Assembly: GCF_014836985.1 (NCBI RefSeq)
Contig: NZ_JACSPU010000002.1
Coordinates: 186,001-250,000, forward strand
From: Planococcus wigleyi
GTDB lineage: Bacteria > Bacillota > Bacilli > Bacillales_A > Planococcaceae
Reading direction: 5' to 3'
Length of the DNA stretch: 64,000 bases
Part shown: piece by piece, positions 30,568 to 50,219 of the stretch
Numbering within the stretch: position 1 is the stretch's first letter
Layout of the letters: every line of letters starts with the position of its first letter
The notes under the pieces: model-generated
Told to the model about the DNA's origin: nothing
Seen by the model: only the letters and a program-made list of their open reading frames with translations
Database searches by the model: none
Translations under genes and position numbers: made by a program

Positions 30568-30578
30568 TGAATCCACTT

Positions 30579-31692: not shown

Positions 31693-33324
31693 TTAACGAT
31701 GTTTCTTGATTTCCTGCGTCAATTCATTGAATCGCCGGTCAAGCTCCCCGTACTGAGGATCTTTTGCTGTCATAAAACTCAATTTTCCCAGCACTTCCTG
31801 CCGCTCCGTTTCAAGCCGCATCAGCAATTCGCCCGTGTCATCGCGCTCCGGAGCCGGAGCATCGAGCTGCTTCTCAATCCGGTGATCTGCGATGACCAAT
31901 TTGCTGGTGGTGGTTTTCTCGCGGAACGCCTGGTCATGGGAGACAACCAGCAAAGTGCCCGTATAGTGGGACAGCGTTTCCTCAAGCTGCTCGCGTGACG
32001 GCAAATCAAGGTGGTTGGTCGGCTCATCCAGAATCAGCGCATCCCGTTCTTCCAGGATATAGAGCATCAACTTGCATTTGATGCGTTCGCCCATGCTCAT
32101 GGCGCTGATGGGCTCGTTCCACTGCTCCGCCGTGAAGCCGAGATGCCTCATGAGGTTCTGGACCTTTCCGCGCGCTTCGAAGGTTTCCTTATAGAACAGC
32201 TCTGCCGGTGTTTCCTCAAGCGGCAAGTCAAACACTTCCTGCGTCAAGTAGCCGACACTCGCCGAAGGGGACATCCAGACTTCGCCGTCTGCGGTTTCCT
32301 GTCCCAGCAGAATTTTCAGCAACGTCGTTTTGCCGCTGCCGTTTGGGCCTTCAATGGCGACTTTTTCACCGTGGAGAATGGTGAAATCCGCTTGATCGAA
32401 CAGCAGATTCCCGTCAAATGATTTCGACAACCCCTTCGCTTCGAGAAACCGCTTGCCGGTTTTATGCGTGGCTTTCATGGAGAAGTTGACTTCGTATTCC
32501 GGCTCGAGCGGTTCAGCGTTGATTTTCTCCAACTCTTTTTCCAGCCGCTTCTGCTTGGATTTGACCTGCTTGTCCATGCGTTTCGCTTTCAGGCGGTAAT
32601 GTTCTTTATAGCCTTCCTGTTTGGTCGATTCGGCATGCGCTTTGTGCGACCAGGAAGTCAGCTCGTCCATCTGCGCTTCGATGCGCCCGACCATTTTCTG
32701 CTGCTGGTCGTATTCGCGCTGCTGGGCCAGCCGTTTTTGCTGCCGCGCTTCCATATAGCTGGAGTAATTGCCTCGGTGCTCGATAAGCTTCCGGTTTTCC
32801 AAGGACCAGATCTTGGTTGCGACAGCGTCCAGGAAATGCCGGTTATGCGACACCAGAATGAGAGTTCCGGGATACTTGCGAATCTGGTTTGTCAGCAGCT
32901 CAATGCTGCCGCTATCAAGGTGATTGGTCGGTTCGTCCAGCAACAACAGGTGGGCATTTTGTGCAAAGCCTGCAGAAAGCCGGGCTTTCAGTTTTTCCCC
33001 GCCGCTGAGAAGCGAAAAGTCGTGTTCCGGCACCTGCCACCTGTGCAATAAAACCGTTTCGGAAGCGGACACCTCATCGAACGAGTGGGTTTCCGTTTCC
33101 TGTTCCACAAAAACAGTTTCCGTATTTGGCTGAAGCCAGTCCAACTGGCCGCCTGATGGAACCAATTCTCCGGCGATCAAGCGAAGCAAGGTCGACTTGC
33201 CGGCACCGTTTTTGCCGATGATGCCGATCACGTCGCCTTGCTGGACGCTCGCATTTACTTCTTCAAAAATCACCAGATCCTTTATTTCGTATCGTACATT
33301 TTGCAGTTTCAGCAATTCTTTCAT
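31693..33324 (-). CDS. vmlR: VmlR-like ABC-F ribosome protection protein
   Basis: This ABC-F protein of about 543 residues closely resembles B. subtilis VmlR, which displaces lincosamides, streptogramin A and pleuromutilins from the ribosome. It has two ATPase domains and no membrane span. The first Walker A is GKNGAGKST at 37-45, with SGGEKLKAR and LLLLDEPTNHLD. A charged interdomain linker (the antibiotic-resistance domain) lies near residues 200-290. The second domain has EGPNGSGKTT, MSMGER and ILDEPTNHLD. Start at 33324 follows GAAGGGA. A long leader with a transcription attenuator lies upstream, so expression is probably induced by the drugs it counters. Confidence 0.92.
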   Translation of the reverse strand: MKELLKLQNVRYEIKDLVIFEEVNASVQQGDVIGIIGKNGAGKSTLLRLIAGELVPSGGQLDWLQPNTETVFVEQETETHSFDEVSASETVLLHRWQVPEHDFSLLSGGEKLKARLSAGFAQNAHLLLLDEPTNHLDSGSIELLTNQIRKYPGTLILVSHNRHFLDAVATKIWSLENRKLIEHRGNYSSYMEARQQKRLAQQREYDQQQKMVGRIEAQMDELTSWSHKAHAESTKQEGYKEHYRLKAKRMDKQVKSKQKRLEKELEKINAEPLEPEYEVNFSMKATHKTGKRFLEAKGLSKSFDGNLLFDQADFTILHGEKVAIEGPNGSGKTTLLKILLGQETADGEVWMSPSASVGYLTQEVFDLPLEETPAELFYKETFEARGKVQNLMRHLGFTAEQWNEPISAMSMGERIKCKLMLYILEERDALILDEPTNHLDLPSREQLEETLSHYTGTLLVVSHDQAFREKTTTSKLVIADHRIEKQLDAPAPERDDTGELLMRLETERQEVLGKLSFMTAKDPQYGELDRRFNELTQEIKKHR

Positions 33325-33354
33325 CCAATCAATCCCTTCAGGAGAGGGAGAATC

Positions 33355-33386
33355 AAAAAATCCTCCCAAATAAATTTGGAAGGATT
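33355..33386 (-). terminator. Attenuator terminator in the vmlR leader
   Basis: In minus-strand reading AATCCTTCCAAA pairs with TTTGGGAGGATT (one G-U) and is followed by six T residues, about 30 bases before the vmlR start codon. It would stop transcription before the gene. Confidence 0.85.
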
Positions 33387-33387
33387 A

Positions 33388-33514
33388 GCCGTATCGTGCC
33401 CGTTCTAAATAAGCCATCAACGTACAATGGCTCGACAGTTGTTGCAGGTGGGCAGACTAATCCTATTTCGCGTGAGTTGAAATCTGTAATTTCAGCCGCT
33501 AAAACAAGATTAGT
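33388..33514 (-). promoter_or_regulatory. Antiterminator/anti-antiterminator elements of the vmlR leader
   Basis: In minus-strand reading ACTAATC (33514-33508, at the leader stop codon) can pair with GATTAGT in 33463-33456. The same region, GGATTAG plus TGCCC (33463-33450), can instead pair with GGGCA (33401-33397) and CTAATCC (33388-33382). That CTAATCC includes the 5' arm of the terminator. The folds are mutually exclusive, as in ribosome-mediated attenuation. Confidence 0.65.
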
Positions 33515-33521
33515 TACGCAT
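33510..33521 (-). CDS. Possible three-codon leader ORF of vmlR (Met-Arg-Asn)
   Basis: ATG CGT AAC TAA follows GGGTGG at rather short spacing. Its stop codon overlaps the first switching segment ACTAATC, so a ribosome held here by an antibiotic would mask that segment and favour antitermination. An alternative longer frame starts at 33532 in another phase and runs into the terminator. Confidence 0.4.
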   Translation of the reverse strand: MRN

Positions 33522-33558
33522 CGTCCACCCATCAGCCTTTCTGTCGTTTGATAAGGCC

Positions 33559-33587
33559 AGTATAACATAAGAAATCATCCTTTTACA
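33559..33587 (-). promoter_or_regulatory. Sigma-A promoter of vmlR
   Basis: In minus-strand reading, TGTAAA (33587-33582) and TATACT (33564-33559) are separated by 17 bases. This predicts a leader of about 230 bases. Confidence 0.65.
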
Positions 33588-33684
33588 GCAGGGCTGTCCA
33601 TCCCAATCCGCTGTTTTGTAAAGCAGTCCAACGGGTAACCTAAGACTGTCTTGTTTTTAAAAATACAGTTTTCAGGAGGCTATC

Positions 33685-34755
33685 ATGGAATATATCTATC
33701 TCGGAAATTCAGGTTTGCGGGTTCCGAAGTACATACTCGGGACGGTCCCTTTCAGCGGAACAAACGGTTTTGAAGCAGCCGGCAACATCGATGACAAACT
33801 GGCGCGCCGCATGGTCGACATGTCACTCGAAGCGGGCATCAATATGTTCGATACGGCGAATCTCTATTCGAAAGGGGATGCGGAACGGGTCTTGGGTTCA
33901 GCCATCAAAGAGCGCCGTGAAGACGTATTGCTGACATCGAAAACCGGTTTCCATATGGAAGACAACCCTAACGCAAGAGGAGCTTCAAGAAGCAACATCC
34001 TTCGGTCCATCGATCAAACGCTTGAACGTTTGGGAACAGATTACCTCGATTTGTATTTTGTTCACCTGTGGGACGGGCAAACACCGGTCGAAGAAACCGT
34101 CGAGACGATGACCAGTCTCGTGAAGTCCGGAAAGATCCGCCATTGGGGCGTATCCAATTACAGCGGGTGGGCACTGGCACGGACGTTCACCGTCGCAGAG
34201 CAAGGCGGCTATATCCCGCCGATCACACAACAGATCTATTACACGCCGGAAGCGCGGGAAGCGGAATACGAACTGCTTCCGGCAGGCCAGGAGCTCGGCA
34301 TCGGTTCAATGATCTGGAGTCCGCTCGGCGAAGGGCTTTTGAACGGCAAAATCGGACGCAACAAACAAGCGCCTGAGAACACGCGCCAAGGTGCCGGATG
34401 GCCGGAGCCTTGGGTGCAGGACCAGGAGCGGCTTTACCAGGTCATTGATGCATTAGAAGAAGTTGCAGCTAATCACAATGCTTCTGTGCCGCAGATCGCC
34501 TATGCATGGGTACGCGACCGTCCGAACGTCGGGCCAATTGTCATCGCAGCGCGCAACGAAGAACAGCTGAAGGAAAACATCGCTTCTTTCGACATCAAGC
34601 TGACGCAGGAAGAACACGACCAAATCGAAGCCGTCGCACGTCCGGTGCCGATCTACCCGAACTGGCACCGTGCCATGAGCTCGTTCGACATGAGCAGTTC
34701 GTCCGAGAAAGTATATTTGGAAGGCTATAAGAAATCAATGGGGATAGAAGAATAA
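33685..34755 (+). CDS. Aldo/keto reductase, voltage-gated K+ channel beta-subunit-like
   Basis: This 356-residue AKR has the pattern YIYLGNSGLRVPKYILGT, NMFDTANLYSKGDAERVLGSAIKERR (Asp and Tyr), VLLTSKTGF (Lys) and LDLYFVHLWDGQTPVEET (His). The C-terminal IVIAARNEEQLKENI binds NADP(H). It is typical of the larger YghZ/AKR14-like group that reduces aldehydes and methylglyoxal. Substrate not determined. RBS AGGAGG precedes the ATG, and it ends with a terminator. Confidence 0.9.
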   Translation: MEYIYLGNSGLRVPKYILGTVPFSGTNGFEAAGNIDDKLARRMVDMSLEAGINMFDTANLYSKGDAERVLGSAIKERREDVLLTSKTGFHMEDNPNARGASRSNILRSIDQTLERLGTDYLDLYFVHLWDGQTPVEETVETMTSLVKSGKIRHWGVSNYSGWALARTFTVAEQGGYIPPITQQIYYTPEAREAEYELLPAGQELGIGSMIWSPLGEGLLNGKIGRNKQAPENTRQGAGWPEPWVQDQERLYQVIDALEEVAANHNASVPQIAYAWVRDRPNVGPIVIAARNEEQLKENIASFDIKLTQEEHDQIEAVARPVPIYPNWHRAMSSFDMSSSSEKVYLEGYKKSMGIEE

Positions 34756-34756
34756 G

Positions 34757-34808
34757 AAAACGCACCGGTCCTGAGCGCTAAATGCCTCTGGATCGGTGCG
34801 TTTTTTGA
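34757..34808 (+). terminator. Terminator after the aldo/keto reductase gene
   Basis: AAAACGCACCGGTCC / GGATCGGTGCGTTTTTT is a stem with one G-U pair, with a T tract. Confidence 0.85.
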
Positions 34809-34862
34809 TTTTGTAACTTTTCACCAGGCGAAAGGTCTAATGGATGCGAAGGGGGCAAGAAA

Positions 34863-35348
34863 ATGAAATTCAAGCAGTTAGCTCTGGCCGTGGGTATCCT
34901 GCTGGTACTCGCAGCATGCTCAGAAGAAAAAGCGGCAAAACCCGCTGATCCTGTCATGGAAAGCAGAAAGGATGTGGAAGAAGCACTTCCAATCCTTGAC
35001 GTAACGATAGATGGAAGGGAGCAACCGACTATCCGGGGCGGCTATAGCTGGAGCTTCTTTGACGAGAAGGACAATGCGTCGGCAACAATCGAAGCGGAAT
35101 CCCTTTCGCCTTTGGAGTTGGCCGAGAACCAGAAAGCGCCGAAAGTGAATGGCGAAACGACGATCGATCTCCATTTCAACAAGCAACCGGACAGCTGCTA
35201 TGTGCAAATCTGGGATTCGGAAGGCGTTGCCAGGGGACCTTTTGATGACATCGTGCTTGGGGAGTCCAGCGGGAAAATGGTGTATCAGATTATTGCGGAG
35301 TGGGAACAGGGGACGGCTACATATATTTTCTCGCTGACGCTTGAATAG
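34863..35348 (+). CDS. Predicted lipoprotein, unknown function
   Basis: This 161-residue protein has a clear lipoprotein signal (MKFKQLALAVGILLVLAAC, lipobox LAAC with Cys19). A soluble domain rich in beta-like segments follows (IRGGYSWSFFDEKDNAS, VNGETTIDLHFNKQPDSCYVQIWD). It is probably exposed on the outer face of the membrane. No family recognised. GAAGGGGGC is the RBS. Single gene. Confidence 0.75.
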   Translation: MKFKQLALAVGILLVLAACSEEKAAKPADPVMESRKDVEEALPILDVTIDGREQPTIRGGYSWSFFDEKDNASATIEAESLSPLELAENQKAPKVNGETTIDLHFNKQPDSCYVQIWDSEGVARGPFDDIVLGESSGKMVYQIIAEWEQGTATYIFSLTLE

Positions 35349-35579
35349 CAGATGTTCTCACGGACATACCGGGTTTCTGTAGAGAGGATAAGCTGTCAGA
35401 AAATTTACATTCTGAAAGGGCAGGCTGTGATAAACTGGAATAGGGAGAGGGATATTCACCTGAGATAAAACCGGGACTCAAACTGAGCCAGCAGAATAAA
35501 TTCTCTGTGCGGCAAGCAATCGAAGATTGAATTCAACAAAGGCAGGCATCATGAAACAAGCGAAAAGGGGTTGGGACGG

Positions 35580-36029
35580 ATGGGCGAAAACGAAGACTTG
35601 TTCAGCAGAAAACCGAAAGAAGAACGCAGATTAGGGGAACCGACCGGGGCGTTTAAAGGCGCAGCCTGGGGCTCATTGCTGATCGGGGTATCGGCATATT
35701 TGATCGGACTGTACAATGCGCTGATGGAATTGAATGAAAAAGGCTATTATATTACTTTACTAATTCTTGGGCTTTATGCCGCAGTCTCCCTTCAAAAAGC
35801 AGTCCGCGACCGCGACGAAGGAATCCGGGTCACCAACCTGTATTTCGGCATCAGCTGGTTTGCACTGATTGCCGCGATAGCGCTTATGGCAATCGGTCTG
35901 TTCAATGCCGGAAGCATCACCTTAAGCGAGAAAGGCTTTTACGGCATCTCGTTCGTCTTGAGTTTGTTCGCAGTTGTTACTGTGCAGAAGAATGTAAGGG
36001 ATACGGAAGAGGCGAATCAGGATAAGTAA
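35580..36029 (+). CDS. YiaA/YiaB two-helix-domain membrane protein
   Basis: This 149-residue protein contains two copies of the YiaAB two-helix unit (GLYNALMELNEKGYYITLLILGLYAAVSLQKAVRDR and GLFNAGSITLSEKGFYGISFVLSLFAVVTVQKNVRD). It has four membrane spans after a hydrophilic start. Function of the family is unknown. The ATG at 35580 is nine bases after AAAAGGGG; an in-frame TTG at 35571 is less likely. The 230 bases upstream show no recognisable element. Confidence 0.82.
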   Translation: MGENEDLFSRKPKEERRLGEPTGAFKGAAWGSLLIGVSAYLIGLYNALMELNEKGYYITLLILGLYAAVSLQKAVRDRDEGIRVTNLYFGISWFALIAAIALMAIGLFNAGSITLSEKGFYGISFVLSLFAVVTVQKNVRDTEEANQDK

Positions 36030-36069
36030 ATTGTTATTCAGAAGGACGTCTTAGTAAAAGAAAAAAGCG

Positions 36070-36105
36070 GAAAACACCTGACTTTTTTGAGTCAGGTGTT
36101 TTTTG
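36070..36105. terminator. Bidirectional terminator
   Basis: AAAACACCTGAC / GTCAGGTGTTTTTT lies between the YiaAB gene and the decayed ABC exporter. Confidence 0.8.
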
Positions 36106-37314: not shown

Positions 37315-38274
37315 ATGAGGGATATAAGTAAATGGACATATAAATGTAATAGTGAATATTTAGCTTTAGAAGAGTGGATGTTATTTGCTATGGGAATTGG
37401 TGGGTATATTCGTGACTACTCAAAAAAAAATAAGAGTGAAATACACATTTACTTATCATTACCGAACAGTTTATTATTCTCTTACTTTATTGCAACAGGT
37501 ATTTTTAATGAAAAAATGTCTGAAGAAGTAACAGATGAAACTATATTAAATTATTTTAAAAAGCTAACACATGGTGATCAAATTTATTATTTTGATAACG
37601 AGGAGTGGAAACGCTGTTCAGTGATTAATCTTATCCAAGGGAAGACGAGAGAAGATTCTTGGCATTTACTAATTCGTAATCATAAGCAGATTGCTCATTA
37701 CATTCCTTTGAGCCAGTGGAAAGAAAAAATTATTATCTCAGGGAATAGAACATCTGAAATAAAAAATGCACTAGTAATTAAAGATTTTAAACGTGCAAGT
37801 ACAGGAAATCTACAATATGTATATCCAGAAAAATCTTTACAGTCACATGAGCTTCTGAATGAAGTATGTGTAAATATTGCTGGTACTAAGTCAGAGTTTC
37901 TTATGTATTCAAATGCTATTTCACTGAAGATTAATCAGAAGGAATTCACCTTCGCGGACTTCTTATATGATGGAAGTTCAAGTGAATTTAAGAACATTAA
38001 ATGGATTTCTAAAGTTCCTGTATTAGAAGGAGAAATAACAATGTTTTTAAATGCCTCGAAAGGAATTTCTGACATGCATTACTATAAAAAAACCTCAAGA
38101 ATCTTTTTGGATGACAGACATGATAATAGAGAGAAGTCCGAGTTACTACGAATGTCGATTGAACAAGAACTGATTCAAGGGAATTTGGAAATCATCACAT
38201 CTTTCTTGATAGAGGAATTGAAAAAAAAATCAATAAAAGTTCCTCAGGGGGTGGAGATTCTTGCGTGGAAATAG
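37315..38274 (+). CDS. DISARM-like operon protein, possible N-terminal part of a split DrmE
   Basis: This 319-residue protein is very AT-rich in its coding sequence, with no domain that I recognise. RBS GGAAGGTGAG precedes the ATG at 37315. It has no membrane span and no signal peptide. It overlaps the next gene by 14 bases in a different phase. Together the two make about 820 residues at the position where class 2 DISARM has drmE. So it is either the first half of a drmE divided into two translationally coupled genes, or a separate subunit. Confidence 0.6.
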   Translation: MRDISKWTYKCNSEYLALEEWMLFAMGIGGYIRDYSKKNKSEIHIYLSLPNSLLFSYFIATGIFNEKMSEEVTDETILNYFKKLTHGDQIYYFDNEEWKRCSVINLIQGKTREDSWHLLIRNHKQIAHYIPLSQWKEKIIISGNRTSEIKNALVIKDFKRASTGNLQYVYPEKSLQSHELLNEVCVNIAGTKSEFLMYSNAISLKINQKEFTFADFLYDGSSSEFKNIKWISKVPVLEGEITMFLNASKGISDMHYYKKTSRIFLDDRHDNREKSELLRMSIEQELIQGNLEIITSFLIEELKKKSIKVPQGVEILAWK

Positions 38275-39766
38275 AAAAGTAAACTTAGAAATGGTGAATT
38301 CTCATTTTAACTTGCCTAAGAGTATTCATTTTTTGTACGCGGATAGCCATGATTTAGAAAAACTTTATAGCTTATGTAAAGAGTTCTCTAAAGAAATCTG
38401 GAAAAGTTATGAGCATGAAGTATATTTGAAAGAAACTTTTAGTGAATTAAGAAGAACTATTAATCGTTTTTTTACTTCGATTGAAAATTACAGCGTTACA
38501 ATAAGCAGGCATTTGAAGGACGTATTAAATTTATTGAAGAGTTTAAAAAGCGGATACCCTATTATATTTGAGAATTATTGTATTCCATTAGCGGCCTCTT
38601 TAAAAAAGATTCAAGAAGATTATGGAGAAATTAATTTTTTGCAGAATTCTATTAGAGAAAAAATAGCAACTCAGATTAATGGAAATACATATATTTTGAC
38701 TAGGTTCCAAAACGGCATTGATCATATTTTGATAAACGGATATGAAGTGCCGGTATTAAGGGCCAATGATTTTATTAACAAGAATATTTTTGCTGATAAT
38801 ATTATATTTATTGGATCACCATATAACTTTGAAGAAAAGTTTTCTACTCTATTTTTTGCTAAAACCATCTATTTTATAAATTATAAAATGTTCGAGAATC
38901 AGTTGAGGGTAAAGAGTAACTTTAATAATTTAGGCATAAACGCTACATATAATAGCATTTATGAAAATGTAAGCATCAATAAGGGACTATTAGGAGAAAA
39001 AATGGAATTTGGCATTGATATAATTACAGAAGTTCTTGATGAAGACGAAGTATTGAAAGATTATAGAATGAACAATAAAGTGATAAATGAAATTGATAAA
39101 ATAGAAACTCGTGTAATATTCTTAGCGAATAAATGCTATATTTTTGTACCCGTTTTATCAAAGATAAGGAAATTAGACAAAGTAACAGGCGAGTTTTTCT
39201 CTGCCGAATTAAAATCAATAGAAAATGACGACTTATTGTTATTCAGAAATAATAGTTCGGTTGATTTAATAGTAGAAGTTGCTAATGTGATAATGGGAGA
39301 AAAAGCTTCCATATATAGAAAGTACCAAAATATCTGGAAAAAGACTTTAAGGGGCTATATAAAGAAATATGGAGCGAAGAAGTTTGCATTGTATTTAAGA
39401 AATAGAGGTATACCGACTGCAAATGAAGTGAATCTGAGGAACTGGATTTCACCTGAAAATATTGCTCCCAATCACCTTGTAGAGCTGCTCACAATATTTC
39501 AATATAGTCCAGAACGTATTGAAAAAATAGTAATTTCAACAAAAAAAATAAAGTCTGCTCATTTAAGAGCGGGAATATATATTTCTAAGAAACTACTTGA
39601 AGAGTTAAACGAAGATTTATTGGAAGGCTTAGAAGATGAGGGCTATGTCACTTTCTCTTCTGAATTGTTCAAGGGAGCTTCATTTAATATAGAAATTGTA
39701 AAAAATATTAGTGAAAAAGTGATGGTCATTGATAGAAAAGATGTTCTTAAGATTTTTAGGGGGTAA
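38261..39766 (+). CDS. drmE: DrmE-like DISARM component
   Basis: The 501-residue product starts with TTG, with GGTGGAG four bases upstream and a 14-base overlap with the preceding gene. The middle (DNIIFIGSPYNFEEKFSTLFFAKTIYFINYKMFENQ) has the alternating pattern of an alpha/beta RecA-like fold without a Walker A. The C-terminal part (WKKTLRGYIKKYGAKKFALYLRNRGIPTANEVNLRNWISPENIAPNHL) looks like the helix-turn-helix end of DrmE-type proteins. Placement directly before drmA and drmB supports this. The name is tentative. Confidence 0.55.
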   Translation: MRGNRKVNLEMVNSHFNLPKSIHFLYADSHDLEKLYSLCKEFSKEIWKSYEHEVYLKETFSELRRTINRFFTSIENYSVTISRHLKDVLNLLKSLKSGYPIIFENYCIPLAASLKKIQEDYGEINFLQNSIREKIATQINGNTYILTRFQNGIDHILINGYEVPVLRANDFINKNIFADNIIFIGSPYNFEEKFSTLFFAKTIYFINYKMFENQLRVKSNFNNLGINATYNSIYENVSINKGLLGEKMEFGIDIITEVLDEDEVLKDYRMNNKVINEIDKIETRVIFLANKCYIFVPVLSKIRKLDKVTGEFFSAELKSIENDDLLLFRNNSSVDLIVEVANVIMGEKASIYRKYQNIWKKTLRGYIKKYGAKKFALYLRNRGIPTANEVNLRNWISPENIAPNHLVELLTIFQYSPERIEKIVISTKKIKSAHLRAGIYISKKLLEELNEDLLEGLEDEGYVTFSSELFKGASFNIEIVKNISEKVMVIDRKDVLKIFRG

Positions 39767-39770
39767 TTTT

Positions 39771-42700
39771 ATGGGAGTTACAATGAAGAATGCTTTAGTC
39801 AATCGTGAAAAACTAATTAATGCAGTGAAAGTTGAAATAATTGGTCCTAGCGAAGTACATGAGAATTCAACTCAATTCCATCCACATGAAGAAATAGTTC
39901 TTAGTTATGATGAATCCCAAAAAAACTATTATTGGAATCACTGTGGAATAAAAGAGGAAGTGCTCCAAACAGATTTTCCTTCACGAAGGTATTCTGCAGG
40001 TATGCTTTATCCGATGAAGTCTATCCAAGCTGAACTTGTGAAGCTTGATCGTGTTTCGCCTTTAGAAAATGAAGAAAAGATAACGCTCAACGAAAACCTA
40101 GTAGAGAAGGATGAAAAGTATCTAGATAGCGATGCTACAACTGAGACGAAAGCAGTCTCGGAAAGTGATTTTTTACCTACCTCGCTAGGACTGACAAGCA
40201 GAGTTTCCAAAGAAACAAAGCAAATGAAAGTAAAATTTACAGGTGGCATATATAACAGCCATCGAGTTCAAATTGGAGATAAAAAATTCTTTAAAAATTG
40301 GTGGTTGAGAGAGACGATATCGGGTGAGTACACAATAGATTTTACAGAGCGGGATAGTGATTTTAAAGTATCGGAACCATTATTGATTTATAATTTATCG
40401 AGTGAGAAAATCGATAAAATAAATCTAACGATTGATGTGAAATGTAGAGTTTCAAGGGGCGAAAAGCTTGTTACTGTTTATATAACAAATAGAACAAATA
40501 CAAGAAAAGAAAAAGGACAAGCTGATGAGGTAACAGTATTTCAATCGGAAATTAAAATTGAGTTGTTAGATGACACCTTTTTTCTGAACTATCCTAAACA
40601 TTACCAAAGAAGTCTTCCAATGAATGAGAACCAAAAAAAAGATGAGCTATTGTATCGAAACAAAATTAATTATGCATTTGGACATGGATGTGCAGCACAA
40701 TGGAATAATAATCTAAAAGATATTAAAGAAATAAAGACAACATTTCTTCCTACCTACGAAACAACCAGCATGACCCCAGACGTCAAGCTTAGTGTGCAAG
40801 GAGAAGAAAAACCACTTGAAATTAAGATGATTGATTTAGCGACTGCAAGTAACTTCGAAGAAATTAAAGGTACACTTGAACCATTAATTGAAGGATATCG
40901 CTCTTGGATTGAATATCAAAAAGATAATGAAGTGCCATCATTACCAAAAAACTTAAGAAAAGTAGCTTCTGATAATTTGGATTTATGCGAAGAGAGTCTT
41001 GAAAGAATGATAAGGGGACTTGATTACTTGCAGGATGAAAAAGTCCGTAGCGGATTTATACTTGCTAATAAAGCTATGTTGCTTCAACAAGTAAATGGAA
41101 AAAAGTTGAGAACACCTTATTTGACGTCTTTGTCTCTAGACTATGATATTACGCTAAAAGAAACTGTAAGTACTATTCAGGATTTAATGGATAGCAAAAA
41201 TAAATGGAGAGCATTTCAAATGGCATTTTTCTTGATGTCTATTGAATCCATAGTCAATGAAAAATCGGAAGAAAGAGAGATAGTTGATTTGATTTGGTTT
41301 CCTACAGGAGGAGGGAAAACTGAAGCCTATTTGGCTGTTGCCGCATTTCAAATGTTTTACCGAAGACTTATAGATTCAAGTGATGCCGGTGTTGATGTAA
41401 TTATGCGATATACTCTACGCCTGCTTACTACAGATCAATTTCAAAGGTCGTCAAGATTAATCTGTGCGATGGAGTACCTGCGGGAAGTAGAAGATATACC
41501 ATTGGGGGACACCCCCTTTTCTATTGGAATGTGGGTTGGTAACAAGACTTCTCCTAATTCTAATAAAGAAGCAATAAGTCAAATGACTGAAATGAATCGT
41601 GGTAAACGAACAGAAGGATTTTTATTAAATCGGTGTCCATGGTGTGGGAGTGTTCTAGGGAAAGTGAAGGCTAAAGGTGCAAAACCTAATTCTAAATCAA
41701 TTCTTTTTGGTTTTAGATCAGAAGAACAGAGATTAGTAGCTTATTGTCCTGATTCTAGTTGTCACTTTCACAAAGAAATTCCGGTTTATTTTGTAGATGA
41801 AACAATTTATCAAAAACGTCCAACATTTTTAATCGGTACAATTGATAAGTTCGTTCAGTTAGCTTGGAATCCCAATGTGCGTTCTTTATTTGGATTAGAT
41901 TTAGATGGTAATCAAAAGGTCAGCCCGCCAAATCTTATTATTCAAGATGAATTACATTTAATTTCGGGGCCCCTTGGTACTCTATCGGGATTGTTTGAAT
42001 CCGTGATAGAAGAACTTTGTACTAAATTTTCAAATGGAAAATTCATAAAACCGAAAATCATATCTGCAACTGCGACTATTAAAGAATTTCAACAGCAAGC
42101 AAAAGATTTATTTGCCAGAGAAGAAGCGAGGATTTTTCCAAGTCCAGGATTAGATATAGACGATTCTTTTTTTGCGAAAGTAGCGGTGGATAAAATAACG
42201 CAATTACCACTTCCGGGTCGGAAATATGTAGGGATTTTCACTTCAAATGTTGGTTTAATGATGTCGGAAGTCCAAACTTTTTCAGCAATATTGCAGGAAG
42301 CTAATCGATGGCCAAAAGACGAATGCGACCCTTACTGGACCCTTTTAGCGTTTTATAATAGTCTAAGAGATTTGGGCGCAGGTATTAATCTTTGTAACAT
42401 GGATATACCTACCTATATGAAATCGATAGCTCGGCGAGAAAACTATGTAGAGAATCGATATATTAAAGAACCATTGGAATTAACTTCCCGGATGCAAAGT
42501 CATGAAATCGCACAAACGATTGATAATTTAAAAGAAGAGTTTGATATAAAAAGTAAGGTGAAGCCATTAGATGTTTGCTTAGCTTCAAATATTATTGAAG
42601 TCGGGGTAGATATAGATCGTTTATCGGTAATGGCAGTAGTGGGACAACCAAAAACGACGGCCCAGTATATTCAAGTTACAGGACGCGTAGGGCGTAGATG

Positions 42701-43280
42701 GGAAGAAAGACCAGGTGTTATATTTACCATCTATTCAAATCGCAACTCACGAGATAAGTCTCATTTTGAACATTTTATAGAGTATCATCAACGGCTATAT
42801 GCACAAGTGGAAACAACTAGCGTTACTCCATTTTCTGATGCCAGTCTTGAAAGAGGACTAAGTGCAGTTGTCATTTCATTTATTCGTCAGCGCTTCTCGA
42901 AATTTATTGCCAGTACTCCTGATTCTCAAGAGTTTGCTAAGCTGAAAGAAACACGTGAATACAAGCATTTTAAACAAAGTATGGTCAATAGATTAAAATT
43001 GATAGATATTGAACAAGCGGAGGAATTTAAATCTATTTTTAAAAGAATCGAAGATACCTTATTGAGTGGAAACTTTACTTCTTGGAAAATAGAAGAAGGT
43101 AAACAAGGATTGATGTATATGAGTGGTGATCCAGTGGCCAAAGTAAATAATCCAAATGCGCTAGCGGTAATTAATTCATTAAGAAGTGTTGACGCAGAAA
43201 GTAGAGGGAAAATTAATTCAAATATAGTAAATCAAGTTTCAAGTGAGTCCGATGACGATTGGGGAGATTTTGGTTTATGA
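39771..43280 (+). CDS. drmA: DISARM helicase DrmA
   Basis: This large SF2-type helicase is about 1,169 residues long. Walker A PTGGGKT is at 511-517, with the Walker B variant DELH at 726-729, SATAT, and motifs V/VI VGVDIDRLSVMAVVGQPKTTAQYIQVTGRVGR ending at 975. A zinc-ribbon insert (RCPWCG ... YCPDSSC) lies between motif I and II. The ~500 residues before the helicase core are the usual DrmA N-terminal region. Start at 39771 follows AGGGGG. It ends in an ATGA overlap with drmB. With DrmB it forms the DNA-engaging core of the DISARM anti-phage system. Confidence 0.88.
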   Translation: MGVTMKNALVNREKLINAVKVEIIGPSEVHENSTQFHPHEEIVLSYDESQKNYYWNHCGIKEEVLQTDFPSRRYSAGMLYPMKSIQAELVKLDRVSPLENEEKITLNENLVEKDEKYLDSDATTETKAVSESDFLPTSLGLTSRVSKETKQMKVKFTGGIYNSHRVQIGDKKFFKNWWLRETISGEYTIDFTERDSDFKVSEPLLIYNLSSEKIDKINLTIDVKCRVSRGEKLVTVYITNRTNTRKEKGQADEVTVFQSEIKIELLDDTFFLNYPKHYQRSLPMNENQKKDELLYRNKINYAFGHGCAAQWNNNLKDIKEIKTTFLPTYETTSMTPDVKLSVQGEEKPLEIKMIDLATASNFEEIKGTLEPLIEGYRSWIEYQKDNEVPSLPKNLRKVASDNLDLCEESLERMIRGLDYLQDEKVRSGFILANKAMLLQQVNGKKLRTPYLTSLSLDYDITLKETVSTIQDLMDSKNKWRAFQMAFFLMSIESIVNEKSEEREIVDLIWFPTGGGKTEAYLAVAAFQMFYRRLIDSSDAGVDVIMRYTLRLLTTDQFQRSSRLICAMEYLREVEDIPLGDTPFSIGMWVGNKTSPNSNKEAISQMTEMNRGKRTEGFLLNRCPWCGSVLGKVKAKGAKPNSKSILFGFRSEEQRLVAYCPDSSCHFHKEIPVYFVDETIYQKRPTFLIGTIDKFVQLAWNPNVRSLFGLDLDGNQKVSPPNLIIQDELHLISGPLGTLSGLFESVIEELCTKFSNGKFIKPKIISATATIKEFQQQAKDLFAREEARIFPSPGLDIDDSFFAKVAVDKITQLPLPGRKYVGIFTSNVGLMMSEVQTFSAILQEANRWPKDECDPYWTLLAFYNSLRDLGAGINLCNMDIPTYMKSIARRENYVENRYIKEPLELTSRMQSHEIAQTIDNLKEEFDIKSKVKPLDVCLASNIIEVGVDIDRLSVMAVVGQPKTTAQYIQVTGRVGRRWEERPGVIFTIYSNRNSRDKSHFEHFIEYHQRLYAQVETTSVTPFSDASLERGLSAVVISFIRQRFSKFIASTPDSQEFAKLKETREYKHFKQSMVNRLKLIDIEQAEEFKSIFKRIEDTLLSGNFTSWKIEEGKQGLMYMSGDPVAKVNNPNALAVINSLRSVDAESRGKINSNIVNQVSSESDDDWGDFGL

Positions 43281-45133
43281 GAATATTGCCTTTAAGAAGA
43301 AGTCAATTAGTCGGTTCAAATGGTCCTGGCTCACTTGTTGTCAGTCCGGAAGGTGAGACGGCAATTGTTGGTGCACTAGATTATTGGTTTCAAAATTCTA
43401 GTGGAAAAGAGGTTACTTCACGTGCAGAGTTCGAAATTCATGAACCCCGTTTAAAAGGGTTTTTAGGAGTAAATAAGCTTTATTCTCCACCGGATTTTAG
43501 GGATGTCAGTAGTGACATCGCAAATTCAAAACTTTATATTCCTTTGTTAAGGTTTCCAAAATGGCATTATTGTTCATTCTGCAGCATGATGCGTGAGTTT
43601 AATTACACAATCGAAAATACAAGAAGTTATTGTAATGAATGTAATAAACAACAATATTTTAAACAAGTACCTTTTATAGTGATTTGTTCAAATGGCCACA
43701 TTTCCGATTTTCCTTGGCACGAATGGGTACATGAAAATGAAGGTTCAACATGCAGAGGTCGATTGAAACTTATAACTATGGGGGGAGCCACTTTGGACTC
43801 CTGGGTTGTAAAGTGTTCTTGTAATAGCAAGAGAAGCTTAAAAGGAATTACTTCCAATGCCTCTGAGAAAAGGGGTAGTAGTGTTTTAGGGGAGCGATTG
43901 AATTCGCATAGTTCAGAGTATAAGTGCAGGGGGCATAAAGCGTGGTGTGGAGATGAATATGAAGAATGTCACGAAAGTCCTGTTGCTATTCTTAGAAACT
44001 CCATTAACGTCTATATGCCCCAAAAAGTTAGTGTAATTTCTATTCCAGGCGAAAAAAATATGGAAGTTGATAGAATATTAAATACTTTGGAAAAGAATAT
44101 AGTTATTAAAGGTTTGCTTTCAACTACTGAAAACATTGATGAAAAGATAGAAATCTTATTGAATTCTTTAGGAACTCTTATTAATGCTGAAAGAGAAGAT
44201 TATGAAAAGGCGATACTATATCTGGATGGAAGTATAGTTGAAAACGGAAATACTATTCAAACCGGCTCTCCAGCCTTATTAAGATCGAAAGAATTTGAAA
44301 AATTGCAACAAAATTGTTCTGAGCCTTATTTGAAGGTACTGGAAGAATGGATAAAAGATGAGGACGCTGATAGTCAATCCAATATATATGCTCCATACTT
44401 TGAAAAAATTAATCGCGTCACAAAATTACGTGAAACAACAGCATTATCTGGTTTTAAAAGATTGAGTCGGACAGACGAAGAAGGGCAATATTCATATTCA
44501 GCCTCATATGACTCTTTATACCATAAAAAGTTACCAAATAATCAAAAGTGGTTACCAGCTTCAACAGTATATGGGGAAGGTATTTTTATAAAATTTGATT
44601 TAAAAGAAATTGAGGAGTGGGAAAAACGCGGTGAAGTGCGCGATTACTTCAAACAGTATATGAAGAGAATCTCAGGTATGAATCATTCCATACCTGAGAT
44701 TATCAGTAACCCTAGAAACATAATGCTTCATACTTTATCTCACTTACTGATTGAAGAAATAGCAAATACAAGTGGATACAATATGGCATCAATCAGAGAA
44801 AGAATGTATCTTCAAACTAATCAAGCATCTCTATTAATTTATACCTCGGCGGGAGATATGGATGGAACTTTCGGAGGCTTAGTACGTATGGGCAAAAAAA
44901 GCAGTTTCTTTGAGTTAGTAGATAAAGCTGTAGCAAATGCTCGTTGGTGTAGCTCTGATCCAGTATGTAGTGAATTAGGGTTCCTTCAAGGGCAAGGTTT
45001 AAATGGAGTGAATGGTGCTGCTTGTTATAATTGCAGTCATTTGCCCGAAACCTCATGTGAGATTGGAAACATGTATTTAGATAGAACTTTTTTAATCGAT
45101 TCTAAAATCGGTTTCTTTAATAATGTCTTTTAA
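43277..45133 (+). CDS. drmB: DISARM protein DrmB with DUF1998 domain
   Basis: This 618-residue protein starts in the drmA stop codon (ATGA). N-terminal zinc-binding pairs are CSFCSMM and YCNECNKQQYF; further Cys and His residues are in ICSNGHISDFPWHEW and CRGHKAWCGDEYEECH. The C-terminal third is the DUF1998 domain (IMLHTLSHLLIEEIANTSGY...) with the final cluster CYNCSHLPETSCEIGNMYLDR. DrmB forms a complex with DrmA that binds DNA. No phospholipase-D-type drmC gene follows, unlike standard DISARM. Confidence 0.88.
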   Translation: MRILPLRRSQLVGSNGPGSLVVSPEGETAIVGALDYWFQNSSGKEVTSRAEFEIHEPRLKGFLGVNKLYSPPDFRDVSSDIANSKLYIPLLRFPKWHYCSFCSMMREFNYTIENTRSYCNECNKQQYFKQVPFIVICSNGHISDFPWHEWVHENEGSTCRGRLKLITMGGATLDSWVVKCSCNSKRSLKGITSNASEKRGSSVLGERLNSHSSEYKCRGHKAWCGDEYEECHESPVAILRNSINVYMPQKVSVISIPGEKNMEVDRILNTLEKNIVIKGLLSTTENIDEKIEILLNSLGTLINAEREDYEKAILYLDGSIVENGNTIQTGSPALLRSKEFEKLQQNCSEPYLKVLEEWIKDEDADSQSNIYAPYFEKINRVTKLRETTALSGFKRLSRTDEEGQYSYSASYDSLYHKKLPNNQKWLPASTVYGEGIFIKFDLKEIEEWEKRGEVRDYFKQYMKRISGMNHSIPEIISNPRNIMLHTLSHLLIEEIANTSGYNMASIRERMYLQTNQASLLIYTSAGDMDGTFGGLVRMGKKSSFFELVDKAVANARWCSSDPVCSELGFLQGQGLNGVNGAACYNCSHLPETSCEIGNMYLDRTFLIDSKIGFFNNVF

Positions 45134-45452: not shown

Positions 45453-46259
45453 GTGATTTATGAAGAGCTAGCTACTGGGTTATTAGAGGGTGTAAAAAAT
45501 GGGGATTCTAAGTTTATCTGGGTGGAAAGGTTCGGATTTACTTATAGAAAAAACTATGAAGGTGATATGGCAAAGCCTCACAATGATAAAGTAGTTCAAA
45601 AACAAGGTTATTTTGATTTTGTTATTAATGCAGGGTCTTGGGGAAGTATCAATCACCACAAATTTTTAGAAGAGATTTTGAAAGATTCTAGTATAGAGGC
45701 CTGTGAAGAAGTATGGGCAGGAAAAGCACCATTCGATATTGCAGAAACAAGGAAAGAGCGAGAATTGCTTATTACTTTAACACTGTTAATGTTTGAACAA
45801 GAAGTGAACTGGGGAAATGAGGTTTGGCAAAGAAAAAGTAATTTTAGTCCAGATTTTAATACACCTTTTTTGCAACGACCAAGAGACATGTTGATGGGGT
45901 TTATTAACATGGCTTTTACTTATAACTCTGTTGATGCCATACCGCACTGGAGGTATCGAAATGATGTTAAAAGCAGTCCAACTTTTAAAAAAAGATTTCG
46001 AGATTATGACACATCGTTTAAATCTCATTTTACACAATATCAGAATGATGAAAGAGCCTTGCCTTTAATGCATTCTTTTAGAGAGAATTTTCTTGAGGTA
46101 CTGGAAGGAACTAAAGACAACCCAAATTACACCCCCCCCTCTTTATGCATAACTTGTAATAGAGAGCTTTCTACGAAAGTGGTAGATTATTGCACCAAAA
46201 ACGAGCGGAGATTTGAAGGTAAACTATATTGTTTTAACCACCAGAAAATAGTGAAATGA
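45453..46259 (+). CDS. Unrecognised island protein with C-terminal zinc-finger-like motif
   Basis: This 268-residue soluble protein starts with GTG after GCGAGGTG. The last ~45 residues contain CITCNRELSTKVVDYCTKNE followed by LYCFNHQ, i.e. Cys-x2-Cys ... Cys ... Cys-x2-His, a probable zinc site. The rest is rich in aromatic and charged residues, with no catalytic motif I know; in particular there is no HxKx4D phospholipase-D motif, so it is not drmC. AT-rich codon use matches the DISARM-like genes upstream, so it probably arrived with them. Confidence 0.65.
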   Translation: MIYEELATGLLEGVKNGDSKFIWVERFGFTYRKNYEGDMAKPHNDKVVQKQGYFDFVINAGSWGSINHHKFLEEILKDSSIEACEEVWAGKAPFDIAETRKERELLITLTLLMFEQEVNWGNEVWQRKSNFSPDFNTPFLQRPRDMLMGFINMAFTYNSVDAIPHWRYRNDVKSSPTFKKRFRDYDTSFKSHFTQYQNDERALPLMHSFRENFLEVLEGTKDNPNYTPPSLCITCNRELSTKVVDYCTKNERRFEGKLYCFNHQKIVK

Positions 46260-46524: not shown

Positions 46525-48006
46525 GTGAGAGCAAATTATTATGACGAGAAAAATCCGTTAAGTATCGAGGAATACGCAAAAAAATTAATTGGGAAGAGCT
46601 TTTTGGATGTTATACACGAAGCGGATCTGGACACAGAACTTAGAGTTGAAATCATCGACAAGTACGGTAACCCTAGAAGAAAAGGCGGACTTGGGAACCT
46701 TCTCGAGGAGGTTTACTTCGGTTATAAAGCCAACAGCAACCAGCAAGCAGATTTTCATGAAGCAGGGGTCGAACTTAAGGTGTCAGCCTATGAATTGTTA
46801 AAAAAAGGAGATTTCCGAGCCGGTGAGAGGTTAGTTATCACGATGATTAGTTACGAAAAGCCCATCGAATTGTACTTTTACGATTCAAAGATACTGGAGA
46901 AAATCGCCGTCATATTATTAGTGTACTATTTGCGGGATAAATCTTTGGGGAGCAACCTTCTCTATCCTATAGATTTCGTCAGCCTATTCTCTCCCCCGCC
47001 AGAGGACATGGAGATTATAAAAAACGATTATGAAAAAATTGCCGAGAAAATCCAGGAGGGCAATGCACATCTACTTTCGGAAAGCGATACGTTATATTTG
47101 GCGGCATCCACCAAAGGGGCAACGGCTTTAAAGAGTACCGTTCCTCAATACTATAATGCTCTAGTTCCTGCTAGAAAGAGGGCATTCAGCCTCAAAAATT
47201 CCTACATGACTTATGTGTTGAACGAATACCTACGGAAAGATGTCGTCACCTATGAGCCGATTGTTAAGGACATCCGTATCTTGAAAGAAAAGTCCTTTGA
47301 AGATTATATAACCGAGAGAATTAATTCGCATATAGGAGTAACCGATGCGGAGCTCTGCAGAATATTCGATAGGGAATACAACAACAACAAATATCAGTGG
47401 GTTGATTTGGCATATCGGATGCTCGGTATAAAATCAAATAGAGCGGAGGAGTTTGAAAAGGCAAATATAGTGGTTAAAGCCATTAGGCTTGAAGAGGACG
47501 GTCGGATGATAGAGAGTAGTTCACTTCCATCTATCAAACTTAAGGAATTCGTCGAGGAGGAATGGGAGGAGTCGACGCTGTATTCATACTTCGAACAGAC
47601 GAAATTCCTGTTCGTGGTTTTTAGGAAATCCGGGAATGTCTATACTCTGAAAGGGTCACAAATGTGGAATATGCCATTGGATGATTTAGAAATCAAAGTA
47701 AGAGATGGCTGGGAGAAAATCAGGAAAACCATAGTGGATGGAGTTGTATTTAATCTGGCGGAAAACAAGAACAAAGAAATAATCGTCAAAAATAATCTGC
47801 CGAAAAAAGAAGATAATCCTGTTATACACATTAGACCCCATAGCCCTAAGCGGTTTTACCTTTTCGAAGACGGTACAACCGTAGGTAATGGTACTTTTAC
47901 ACACGGTGAGGAATTGCCCGATGGTAGATGGATGACGAGACAAAGCTTTTGGATAAACAATACGTACATCTTAGAACAGCTTAATGAGAAGTTGAAAGAG
48001 AAATAA
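46525..48006 (+). CDS. Sau3AI-like type II restriction endonuclease
   Basis: This 493-residue protein starts with GTG after AAGGGGGAG and is almost the same length as R.Sau3AI. The N-terminal domain has the MutH/Sau3AI signature KGGLGNLLEEVYFGY and the catalytic set Asp76 ... Glu83-x-Lys85 (ADFHEAGVELKVS). The C-terminal half is a second related domain, as in Sau3AI, which helps cleavage by dimer formation or DNA looping. The expected target is GATC, unmethylated at cytosine. It is convergent with a cytosine methyltransferase gene. Base composition is less AT-rich than the DISARM-like genes. Confidence 0.87.
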   Translation: MRANYYDEKNPLSIEEYAKKLIGKSFLDVIHEADLDTELRVEIIDKYGNPRRKGGLGNLLEEVYFGYKANSNQQADFHEAGVELKVSAYELLKKGDFRAGERLVITMISYEKPIELYFYDSKILEKIAVILLVYYLRDKSLGSNLLYPIDFVSLFSPPPEDMEIIKNDYEKIAEKIQEGNAHLLSESDTLYLAASTKGATALKSTVPQYYNALVPARKRAFSLKNSYMTYVLNEYLRKDVVTYEPIVKDIRILKEKSFEDYITERINSHIGVTDAELCRIFDREYNNNKYQWVDLAYRMLGIKSNRAEEFEKANIVVKAIRLEEDGRMIESSSLPSIKLKEFVEEEWEESTLYSYFEQTKFLFVVFRKSGNVYTLKGSQMWNMPLDDLEIKVRDGWEKIRKTIVDGVVFNLAENKNKEIIVKNNLPKKEDNPVIHIRPHSPKRFYLFEDGTTVGNGTFTHGEELPDGRWMTRQSFWINNTYILEQLNEKLKEK

Positions 48007-48087: not shown

Positions 48088-48114
48088 AAAAAAGCTGACA
48101 TCTATAATGTCAGC
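48088..48114 (-). terminator. Terminator of the cytosine methyltransferase gene
   Basis: GCTGACAT / ATGTCAGC with a five-base loop, followed by TTTTTT in minus-strand reading. The stem overlaps the methyltransferase stop codon. Confidence 0.75.
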
Positions 48115-49372
48115 CAAAAGCCGGGAATTCCATTTGGAGTTCGTTCACTTCATTCGCTTTTTCTATCTCTTCAATCCGGATGCCCATCCGCTCAATCAAA
48201 TCCACCACAAGGGCATTTCCCATACAGAAGTAACGCATACGATCCGTCATCCCTGAAGTCCAATTATCTGGAAATCCGTTTAGACGCTCACATTCGACGG
48301 GAGTCAAGAAACGCTTCCTGCCATCGACTTCGACAATATGGGTGCTCCGGTTGATCGACCCTTCGCTCGTCAGCATGGTCCGCCCCGGCTTGTCCAATTC
48401 ATCCACAGGGGACATCCCACCTTCGGCGAAATGGTAGATATGGCCTTCCGCGGTTTTCCGCTCAATCCGCTTCGGTCCGCGCAGATAGGCGAACTTCTCG
48501 ATATTCGCTTCGGTGAGGTAGAACTTTTCCGGTACCGCCTCCTCGTCGATCAGGATATCCTTCAGCGGAATCGGCTCCTCTAATTTAGGGGAGAGGTGTG
48601 CCGTGAATACTTTGCCGTCCTTCATATAGCCTGAATTATGGAATCCATAGGAGAACTCATCGGAAATCTCCACGATATCCGAAGGGAGCTCGACAGAGGA
48701 GATGCGGTCCTTGTAAGGTTCCTCTTCGACCGGAAAAGGCTTGGCGAAGAACCCTTCATTGAATACGATCTCTTCAGGGGAGAAGGTTTTCTGCTCGCCC
48801 TCGAAGGAGATGCCGTTCTTATAGGCGAAGATGAATACCCGGCGACGGCGCTGCGCCATGCCGTATTCTGCCGCGTTGATGACACGCCACTCGACGGAGT
48901 AGTTCATATCCCGGAAAGTGGCCAGCATGACTGCGAAGTCGCGTCCTCTTTGGGAGGAAGGGGATTTCAGCAGGCGGTCGACGTTCTCCAGTAGGACATA
49001 TTTCGGGTGGGTGTTTTCAATCACCCGTTTGATTTCCCAGAAGAGGACGCCCTTCTTGCCTTGGATTCCCTGCTCGCCTGACTTGGTGCGTGCCACCGAG
49101 TAGTCCTGGCAAGGGAAGCCGCCGACGAGGAGGTCGGCTCGGAGGTCGTGGAATGTATCATCAGAGACCTTGGTGATGTCTTCCTTCGAATGGATTCCTG
49201 TATCGAAATTGCGTGCATAGCAGTCGAAGGCGTCCTGCGCTTTGCGCGAAGGTTCCCATTGGTTGCCCCATACTACATCAAAAATTTCATGGTTGGCTTT
49301 CTGTAATCCGAGCCGGAATCCGCCGACGCCGGCGAAGAGTTCGATGACTCGGAGTGTTTTTGTCTGTTCCAT
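48110..49372 (-). CDS. DNA (cytosine-5) methyltransferase, Sau3AI type
   Basis: This 420-residue C5 methyltransferase has motif I LFAGVGGFRLG (12-22), the catalytic PCQ (Pro87-Cys88), ENV (129-131), QRRRRVFIFA, and the C-terminal motifs RTMLTSEGSINRSTHIVE and RLNGFPDNW. It is similar in length to M.Sau3AI. As partner of the Sau3AI-like nuclease it should protect GATC by methylating its cytosine. RBS AAAGGATGTTC precedes the ATG. It is transcribed toward the nuclease gene and downstream of vsr, from which it is separated by 107 bases. The gene is clearly richer in GC than the rest of the island. Confidence 0.9.
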   Translation of the reverse strand: MEQTKTLRVIELFAGVGGFRLGLQKANHEIFDVVWGNQWEPSRKAQDAFDCYARNFDTGIHSKEDITKVSDDTFHDLRADLLVGGFPCQDYSVARTKSGEQGIQGKKGVLFWEIKRVIENTHPKYVLLENVDRLLKSPSSQRGRDFAVMLATFRDMNYSVEWRVINAAEYGMAQRRRRVFIFAYKNGISFEGEQKTFSPEEIVFNEGFFAKPFPVEEEPYKDRISSVELPSDIVEISDEFSYGFHNSGYMKDGKVFTAHLSPKLEEPIPLKDILIDEEAVPEKFYLTEANIEKFAYLRGPKRIERKTAEGHIYHFAEGGMSPVDELDKPGRTMLTSEGSINRSTHIVEVDGRKRFLTPVECERLNGFPDNWTSGMTDRMRYFCMGNALVVDLIERMGIRIEEIEKANEVNELQMEFPAFG

Positions 49373-49479: not shown

Positions 49480-49911
49480 TCAATGGGGCTTCCTATATTC
49501 TCTCATGGCTGCCTTGACGAATTCCAGTGCCGAATCGGCTGTTTCGTCCAGATTCTTACGGATTTCATGTTCCCATATCCGGCGGACATGCCAGCCCATC
49601 TCGATGTAGTGGGCATCCACTTCCTTGTCCCGCTCCCTGTTCCGCGCGATTTTGGCATCCCAGAACTCCTGGTTGCTCTTGGGGCGTTTGAAGTGGGTCG
49701 GGCAGCCGTGCCAGAAGCAGGAATCTACGAAGATGACCACCCTATACTTTTGGATAGCGATGTCCGGGGTTCCGCGCAGTTTGCGGACATTCTTCCGGAA
49801 GCGGAGTCCTCTTCTCCAAAGGGCTTTACTGAAGAGGTTCTCCAATTTAGATTGGGCACGGATGGCCCCCATGGTTTTGCTTCTTTGCTCTTTAGTCATC
49901 CGATCTGCCAT
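49480..49911 (-). CDS. vsr: Very short patch repair endonuclease Vsr
   Basis: This 143-residue protein has the Vsr features MTKEQRSKTMGAIRAQSKLE, catalytic Asp50 in GTPDIA, the zinc-site stretch DSCFWHGCP (Cys65, His68, Cys70) and RIWEHEI. It nicks next to T:G mismatches that arise when 5-methylcytosine deaminates, so it limits mutation at sites methylated by the adjacent enzyme. AAAGGAGGTC precedes the ATG. GC-rich like the methyltransferase gene, so the two probably moved as a unit. Confidence 0.92.
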   Translation of the reverse strand: MADRMTKEQRSKTMGAIRAQSKLENLFSKALWRRGLRFRKNVRKLRGTPDIAIQKYRVVIFVDSCFWHGCPTHFKRPKSNQEFWDAKIARNRERDKEVDAHYIEMGWHVRRIWEHEIRKNLDETADSALEFVKAAMREYRKPH

Positions 49912-50047: not shown

Positions 50048-50219
50048 CACGTAAAGAACTAAATACTAATTAGAAGAAAGAACAAATGCAAAAATTTCTT
50101 TGTTTTTCCTGATATCTTGACTGAAGGTGAGTGCATAGTAAGGTTACAAAAAAAGCTCTACTTAGGTAATCACAAGTTTGATTAATAAGAAACTGAGAAA
50201 TAGAGAAAGTGGTGAGAAA
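50048..50219. other. AT-rich gap between the vsr side and the PD-(D/E)XK gene
   Basis: About 170 bases with no frame or RNA element recognised; it presumably holds the promoter of the next gene. Confidence 0.35.

Follow-up and report, generated by a model that had tools for sequence, protein, structure and literature searches.

A four-gene operon of the DISARM type (defence island system associated with restriction-modification) occupies positions 37315..45133 of a 64,000-nucleotide stretch of the Planococcus wigleyi genome (contig NZ_JACSPU010000002.1, positions 186,001 to 250,000; hereafter the window). Class 2 DISARM comprises DrmE, DrmA, DrmB, DrmC and DrmMII. In the window operon drmA and drmB are preceded by two genes, drmE-N and drmE-C, for proteins of 319 and 501 residues, the second of which is homologous to the C-terminal part of DrmE. 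No drmC is found in the window, and a C5-cytosine DNA methylase is encoded nearby, outside the operon. The two-piece arrangement is conserved at other loci, and the split loci form a single clade. The operon is probably a DISARM variant without drmC, whose two-piece DrmE arose from one fission and which uses the mark of the neighbouring restriction-modification cassette.

Identity of the operon products

DrmA and DrmB are recognised by existing models. DrmA carries the motifs PTGGGKT (511), QDELH (725) and QVTGRVGR (968), and it scores 707 bits with PADLOC DrmA, 906 bits with NF038325 (slightly below the curated cut-off of 950) and 483 bits with chain A of PDB 7s9v. DrmB (DUF1998) scores 414 bits with NF038324, above the cut-off of 240, contains the MZB domain, and scores 222 bits with chain B of the same structure. 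Near the C-terminus of DrmA is an S-[LM]-R-x-V motif, in which V1140 is valine in 27 of 29 DrmA sequences; this residue may be the equivalent of the methyl-sensing V1296 of Serratia DrmA, a correspondence drawn from the motif and not from a direct alignment of the two residues.

The 501-residue protein is firmly predicted to be the C-terminal part of DrmE. It covers positions 317-826 of the 838 in NF038316 (DrmE_fam) with a score of 54.7 bits, which falls short of the cut-off (80), and 11 of 15 C-pieces match this profile at an expectation value (E) of 0.01. When compared by hhalign with one-piece DrmE, C-pieces gave probabilities of 99.0 to 99.8 percent (99.1 to 99.8 percent with fuller sets). 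The PADLOC DrmE models matched none of the 15 C-pieces, as against all four one-piece DrmE tried (4 of 13), and NCBIfam DrmE exceeded its cut-off in one of the four split genomes of one draw (G074, 86 bits; G and L numbers denote genomes and loci). The split-DrmE clade is thus poorly seen by current models, and annotation may for this reason record its loci as partial DISARM systems.

The 319-residue protein is likely homologous to the DrmE N-terminus, judged by its position and by weak colinear profile similarity. The two lengths sum to 820 against the 838 positions of the profile, in which the C-piece starts at 317, and both pieces stand in the same order at every split locus found. In hhalign the N-piece reached 69 percent probability against one-piece DrmE in one alignment and 34 percent with all one-piece DrmE. 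All alignments after the first were colinear with the DrmE N-terminus, with scores of 48 and 40 for the two best and 22 and 30 for two subsets of one-piece DrmE, against 14-17 for four decoys (probability 0.1 percent).

Several results weigh against the two-piece interpretation. None of the 16 N-pieces had a DrmE or other credible match among family models (best unrelated E 0.005 and 0.008), and the window drmE-N matched SAVED and DUF3698 below their cut-offs. The hhalign probability varied from 0.6 to 69 percent with the alignment used, the two subsets giving 0.6 and 3.7 percent and the first comparison 0.7 percent with a misplaced alignment. AlphaFold models of the pieces were poor (predicted local distance difference test, pLDDT, 44 and 56; three sequences each), and Foldseek of the C-piece model against PDB returned nothing at E < 0.001. 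A PDB sequence search also gave no credible match for drmE-C (best a designed protein, E 0.0013) or drmE-N (best E 0.08). The missing N-piece matches and its weak or misplaced alignments speak for a different arrangement, in which the 501-residue protein is a short DrmE and the 319-residue one a subunit in its own right, with no relationship to the N-terminus of DrmE. This is considered rather improbable in view of the lengths, the colinear alignments scoring above decoys, and the constant order of the pair. The first-pass annotation had proposed a drmE divided in two. For the C-piece this stands firmly on profiles, whereas for the N-piece position and weak profile similarity point the same way; in model searches of the four proteins DrmA and DrmB were recognised, the 501-residue protein fell below the DrmE cut-off and the 319-residue protein had no DrmE match.

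Recurrence and history of the split

A census of related loci bore out the split beyond the window. Two-piece DrmE was found at 16 loci in three phyla (the window, L002, L003, L035, L036, L037, L038, L055, L056, L057, L058, L059, L060, L061, L062 and L075) and one-piece DrmE at 13 loci. L060 is a Priestia plasmid, L061 and L075 are from Nostoc, and L062 is a Rhodococcus opacus plasmid. Genomes were searched with the C-piece, a C-piece alignment or a DrmE model, the window genome being inside every draw. Matches were obtained in 3 of 100 genomes, 21 of 398 (8 one-piece, 4 split, 9 short weak matches), 8 of 261, 6 of 398 (2 split, 4 one-piece) and 8 of 398 (5 one-piece, 1 split, 2 short weak matches). 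These draws overlap and are not a random sample of bacteria; plasmid records were added to reach 16 split loci, and L002 with G487, like L003 with G485, was counted once. No match came from viral contigs searched with the C-piece alignment.

Both pieces are adjacent at all 16 loci apart from a transposase gene interposed between them at L061. The reading frames overlap by 4-62 bases at 11 loci (by the starts used) and are separated by 3-6 bases at four. Since drmE-C has its own start across these overlaps, gaps and the transposase interruption, it appears to be translated separately. Overlapping frames in the window, and a Priestia plasmid record in which the C-piece is broken into two genes, could hint at a frameshift or sequencing error, or at frames joined by programmed frameshifting. 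Such an origin is barely credible: sequencing error is excluded because the pair recurs at 16 loci, in a single clade, with the two genes spaced apart at four of them and parted by a transposase gene at another. The Priestia megaterium copy itself may be inactive, since its C-piece is annotated as two genes (Table 1).

In DrmA trees of 25 and 29 rows and a DrmB tree of 28 rows, all 15 split rows form one clade (100/100). Its neighbours are five one-piece loci with a NERD-helicase gene, and the remaining one-piece loci fall outside. Of the two DrmA trees only the larger contains L028, L030, L073 and L074, the split clade being identical in both; L028 is missing from the DrmB tree, L029, L032 and L089 (no full DrmA) are in no tree, and neither DrmA nor DrmB was obtained for L075, hence 15 split rows. 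The deepest split row in the DrmA tree is Rhodococcus, which in the DrmB tree is placed with Nostoc and L059 instead; the root position is less sure because the outgroup rows are long branches. As the split rows form one clade nested among one-piece loci, a single ancestral fission of DrmE would be the simplest history.

The nuclease

The absence of drmC noted at first pass is upheld for the window, where a three-sequence DrmC profile run against six frames (stretches of at least 40 residues) gave a best E of 3; a drmC hidden in another frame is thereby ruled out, and the window has no DrmC nuclease of the phospholipase D (PLD) type. NF038319 found no drmC above cut-off in 16 genomes (11 of them split). 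Two weak matches in the Planococcus genome itself (frames of 489 and 524 residues) are taken as background because 11 of 14 control genomes show such matches, and a drmC elsewhere in the genome was rejected on this basis. The positive control, G005, reached 97 bits, itself below the cut-off of 133, and the 16-genome search can miss weak matches: a 408-residue PLD protein of L037, 30.5 bits elsewhere, went unlisted. With the DrmC profile at E 0.01, the loci then fetched yielded, besides the sequences that make up the profile, only three weakly matching PLD proteins (408 residues at L037, 808 at L059 and 786 at L088). The absence of drmC is not novel in itself, since PMC9142583 describes DrmC as dispensable and notes that annotated operons often lack it.

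Two side observations concern possible substitutes. The L037 protein adjoins drmB on the opposite strand, is weakly DrmC-like and is a possible nuclease substitute. A NERD-helicase of about 580 residues is encoded between drmE and drmA at 8 of the 13 one-piece loci and at the split Rhodococcus locus; loci of this kind have no strong match to the DrmC profile, and the NERD-helicase may stand in for DrmC.

The neighbouring methylase and the proposed self mark

The first-pass annotation reported no adjacent methylase. This is correct for the operon itself, which contains no DNA methylase gene, and incorrect for the neighbourhood, where a C5 methylase gene starts 2976 bases after drmB on the opposite strand. 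A search of this genome gave no other PF00145 match. With its endonuclease the methylase has the make-up of a Sau3AI-type restriction-modification system (scores in Table 1); from the endonuclease family, GATC with a marked C is the predicted site. All 11 split genomes searched have a PF00145 match above cut-off, compared with 46 of 100 relatives (43 of 97 once three split genomes among them are removed; Fisher P 0.0003). The C5 methylase nearest to the C-piece lies within 12 kb at 10 of 12 split loci, within 16 kb at 11, and 20 kb away at the last (G074). Uniform placement, a null that ignores the clustering of defence genes, would give 0.23 loci within 16 kb against the 11 observed. Loci from genome assemblies enter this statistic and the four on plasmid records (one from Priestia, one from Rhodococcus, two from Nostoc) do not; 26 methylase rows were merged by hand into 22 methylases. 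Among the plasmid loci a C5 methylase is near in Priestia and Rhodococcus. Absence based on reading frames is weak evidence at the G+C-rich Rhodococcus locus, since the script, which keeps long frames first and drops overlapping ones, missed an annotated methylase there.

At 10 of 13 one-piece loci the fetched sequence includes a C5 methylase, as DISARM would be expected to show, so its nearness is usual for both DrmE forms. What differs among split loci is the partner. It is a Sau3AI-type endonuclease at the window, L002, L003 (divergent, below cut-off), G535 and G488; NgoPII at L038; a McrB-like ATPase at L036 (below the McrB model cut-off) with a homologue at L058; an uncharacterised protein of 572-587 residues at L056, L076 and L077; and NaeI with Vsr in Rhodococcus. 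A weak AlwI/BpuJI-like protein lies near the distant methylase of G074 (L079), and the listing leaves out G140 C4. The window methylase is 84-95 percent identical to those of four congeners that have no split operon, where it accompanies Vsr beside other modules: a PLD-SNF2 helicase at L102 and L103, and, at L104 and L105, UvrD-like helicases plus an endonuclease of the Sau3AI type that shares only 39 percent identity. Methylase and Vsr thus apparently stay together while the genes around them change. It can be suggested, tentatively, that the split-DrmE operon is a plug-in DrmAB motor that lacks its own methylase and nuclease and is able to join any available C5 cassette (Sau3AI-, NgoPII-, NaeI- or McrB-like) and read its methyl mark, with the conserved methylase-Vsr pair as a genus hub for exchangeable restriction modules.

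Defence genes cluster, and for this reason the nearness of a methylase need not mean a shared function. The cassette could be a mere defence-island neighbour of an independently acting split DISARM, whose discrimination between self and non-self relies on DNA ends instead of methylation. In its favour, the fetched stretches of the two Nostoc loci have no methylase profile match, the nearest C5 methylase of G074 is 20 kb off, the window methylase also occurs in congeners without the operon, and the methylase and Vsr genes have a G+C of 53 percent against 34 percent for the operon, which points to different histories. Set against it, in 5 of 11 split genomes (G000, G424, G485, G547 and G150) the search turned up no C5 methylase other than the one near the operon, and this alternative is judged possible but the less probable account. 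The operon, a predicted anti-phage system, may also be inactive. For the proposal of the first-pass annotation that the methyl mark is borrowed from the Sau3AI-like neighbour, the evidence is circumstantial: a C5 methylase within 16 kb at nearly all the split loci counted.

Under the favoured reading of a split DISARM using the neighbouring mark, the DrmE pieces would be translated separately and would probably re-associate; bound to each other, they would do the job of one-piece DrmE and act with the DrmAB helicase complex. Serratia DrmAB is described in PMC9142583 as autoinhibited, as loading at 5' overhangs and as having lower ATPase activity on methylated DNA. By analogy with that report, the window DrmAB may wait in an autoinhibited state, load on phage DNA with a 5' overhang, be more active on unmethylated DNA, and then block or unwind the DNA. 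The methylase of the adjacent restriction cassette would provide the self mark in the form of 5-methylcytosine, and DNA destruction, if any, could fall to the neighbouring endonuclease or a host nuclease.

The same genus offers a related arrangement at L030 (G005), where a one-piece DrmE, a DrmC-like gene, a methylase with Vsr, and a Sau3AI-type endonuclease with a second methylase lie close together. DISARM and such a cassette may therefore have come together repeatedly in this genus.

Gene layout and neighbouring genes

The features are summarised in Table 1. The tightly overlapping four-gene operon described at first pass holds in its coordinates, overlaps and DrmA motifs: drmE-N and drmE-C overlap by 14 bases, and drmA and drmB by ATGA. 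A G-rich motif similar to that before drmE-C stands at the drmE-C start in 10 of 15 loci (start contexts judged by eye). The operon looks acquired, since its G+C of 34 percent is lower than that of the flanking segments 17700-36100 (46 percent) and 52345-64000 (43 percent). A promoter and terminator scan gave 45 promoter-like sites against 38.2 expected and 6 terminator-like sites against 4.2 expected.

Table 1. Positions of the operon genes, neighbouring genes and related features; coordinates are those of the window unless a locus is named
Feature	Coordinates	Strand	Evidence
drmE-N, 319 aa, likely N-terminal piece of two-piece DrmE	37315..38274	+	Open reading frame, ATG start; upstream homologue at 15 other split loci; weak colinear profile match
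Shine-Dalgarno-like AGGGGGTGGAG, inside last drmE-N codons, before TTG start of drmE-C	38246..38256	+	Sequence
drmE-C, 501 aa, predicted C-terminal DrmE piece	38261..39766	+	Open reading frame, TTG start; NF038316 match; hhalign with one-piece DrmE
drmA, 1169 aa, superfamily 2 (SF2) helicase	39771..43280	+	ATG start; PADLOC DrmA, NF038325, PDB 7s9v chain A
drmB, 618 aa, MrfA-type Zn-binding (MZB) domain	43277..45133	+	NF038324, MZB, PDB 7s9v chain B
268-aa protein, C-terminal Cys/His cluster	45453-46259	+
Sau3AI-family type II restriction endonuclease	46525..48006	+	NF040973 527 bits, cut-off 300
C5-cytosine DNA methylase, proposed self-mark source	48110..49372	-	PF00145 239 bits; genome search
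Vsr mismatch endonuclease, adjoins methylase	49480..49911	-	TIGR00632 132 bits
378-aa protein, G+C 28 percent	50178-51314		Sub-threshold HSDR_N_2 match, 14.3 bits
DrmE C-piece annotated as two genes	L060:9001-10502
408-aa PLD protein	L037:14991-16217		Weakly DrmC-like, 30.5 bits
NERD-helicase	L031:9303-11051
NERD-helicase	L033:8838-10559
NERD-helicase	L034:8719-10482
NERD-helicase	L086:7664-9400
NERD-helicase	L087:7369-9132
NERD-helicase	L062:6266-7960

The gene at 45453 had been put forward at first pass as a different effector for DrmAB. It is adjacent to the operon, on the same strand and 319 bases after drmB. This proposal was not borne out and is now very unlikely: the sequence fetched around the other split loci (about 10-20 kb per locus) gave 369 open reading frames and no homologue among them, and relatives occur in other genomes and on plasmids of Bacillota, in one case (L107) with restriction genes alongside. 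The protein itself has no credible family match. Beyond Vsr, the 378-residue protein is perhaps another restriction-type gene product.

Comparison with known systems

The window operon resembles class 2 DISARM in its homologous DrmA, DrmB and DrmE C-terminal part and in the C5 methylase nearby. It differs in that DrmE is in two genes, drmC is missing from the window, and the methylase stands outside the operon, on the opposite strand beside an endonuclease and Vsr. The congener locus of G005 has a one-piece DrmE, which scores 677 bits with PADLOC DrmE, together with a DrmC-like gene that reaches 98 bits where the cut-off is 133. The term DrmE does not occur in the main text of PMC9090908 and PMC8565338, and the split is not claimed here as unpublished; in PMC9142583 the interplay of DrmE with DrmAB is left to future studies. 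The split divides DrmE into two natural parts that can be separately expressed, deleted and assayed for binding, and the variety of associated C5 cassettes offers a direct way to test whether DISARM needs its own methylase.

Serratia DrmAB presumably comes from an operon of the class 1 type without DrmE. The window proteins are similar to it (PDB 7s9v/7s9w; PMC9142583), DrmA aligning over residues 119-1046 of 1169 and DrmB in two stretches, the better of which is 371-608 of 618. Five of the eight one-piece loci with a NERD-helicase are the sister group of the split clade in both trees; L086 lies further out, and L032 and L089 have no full DrmA. Like the window, these eight loci have no strong DrmC match, and a C5 methylase is present in the sequence fetched for seven of them. 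They differ from it in their one-piece DrmE and in the NERD-helicase between drmE and drmA, a gene missing from the window operon and present at the split Rhodococcus opacus plasmid locus. The cassette, in turn, is like a Sau3AI-type restriction-modification system in its endonuclease above the curated cut-off and its adjoining C5 methylase and Vsr; a Sau3AI-type endonuclease is also found near the one-piece locus L030. Unlike such a system, its methylase and Vsr recur in four congeners beside other partner genes.

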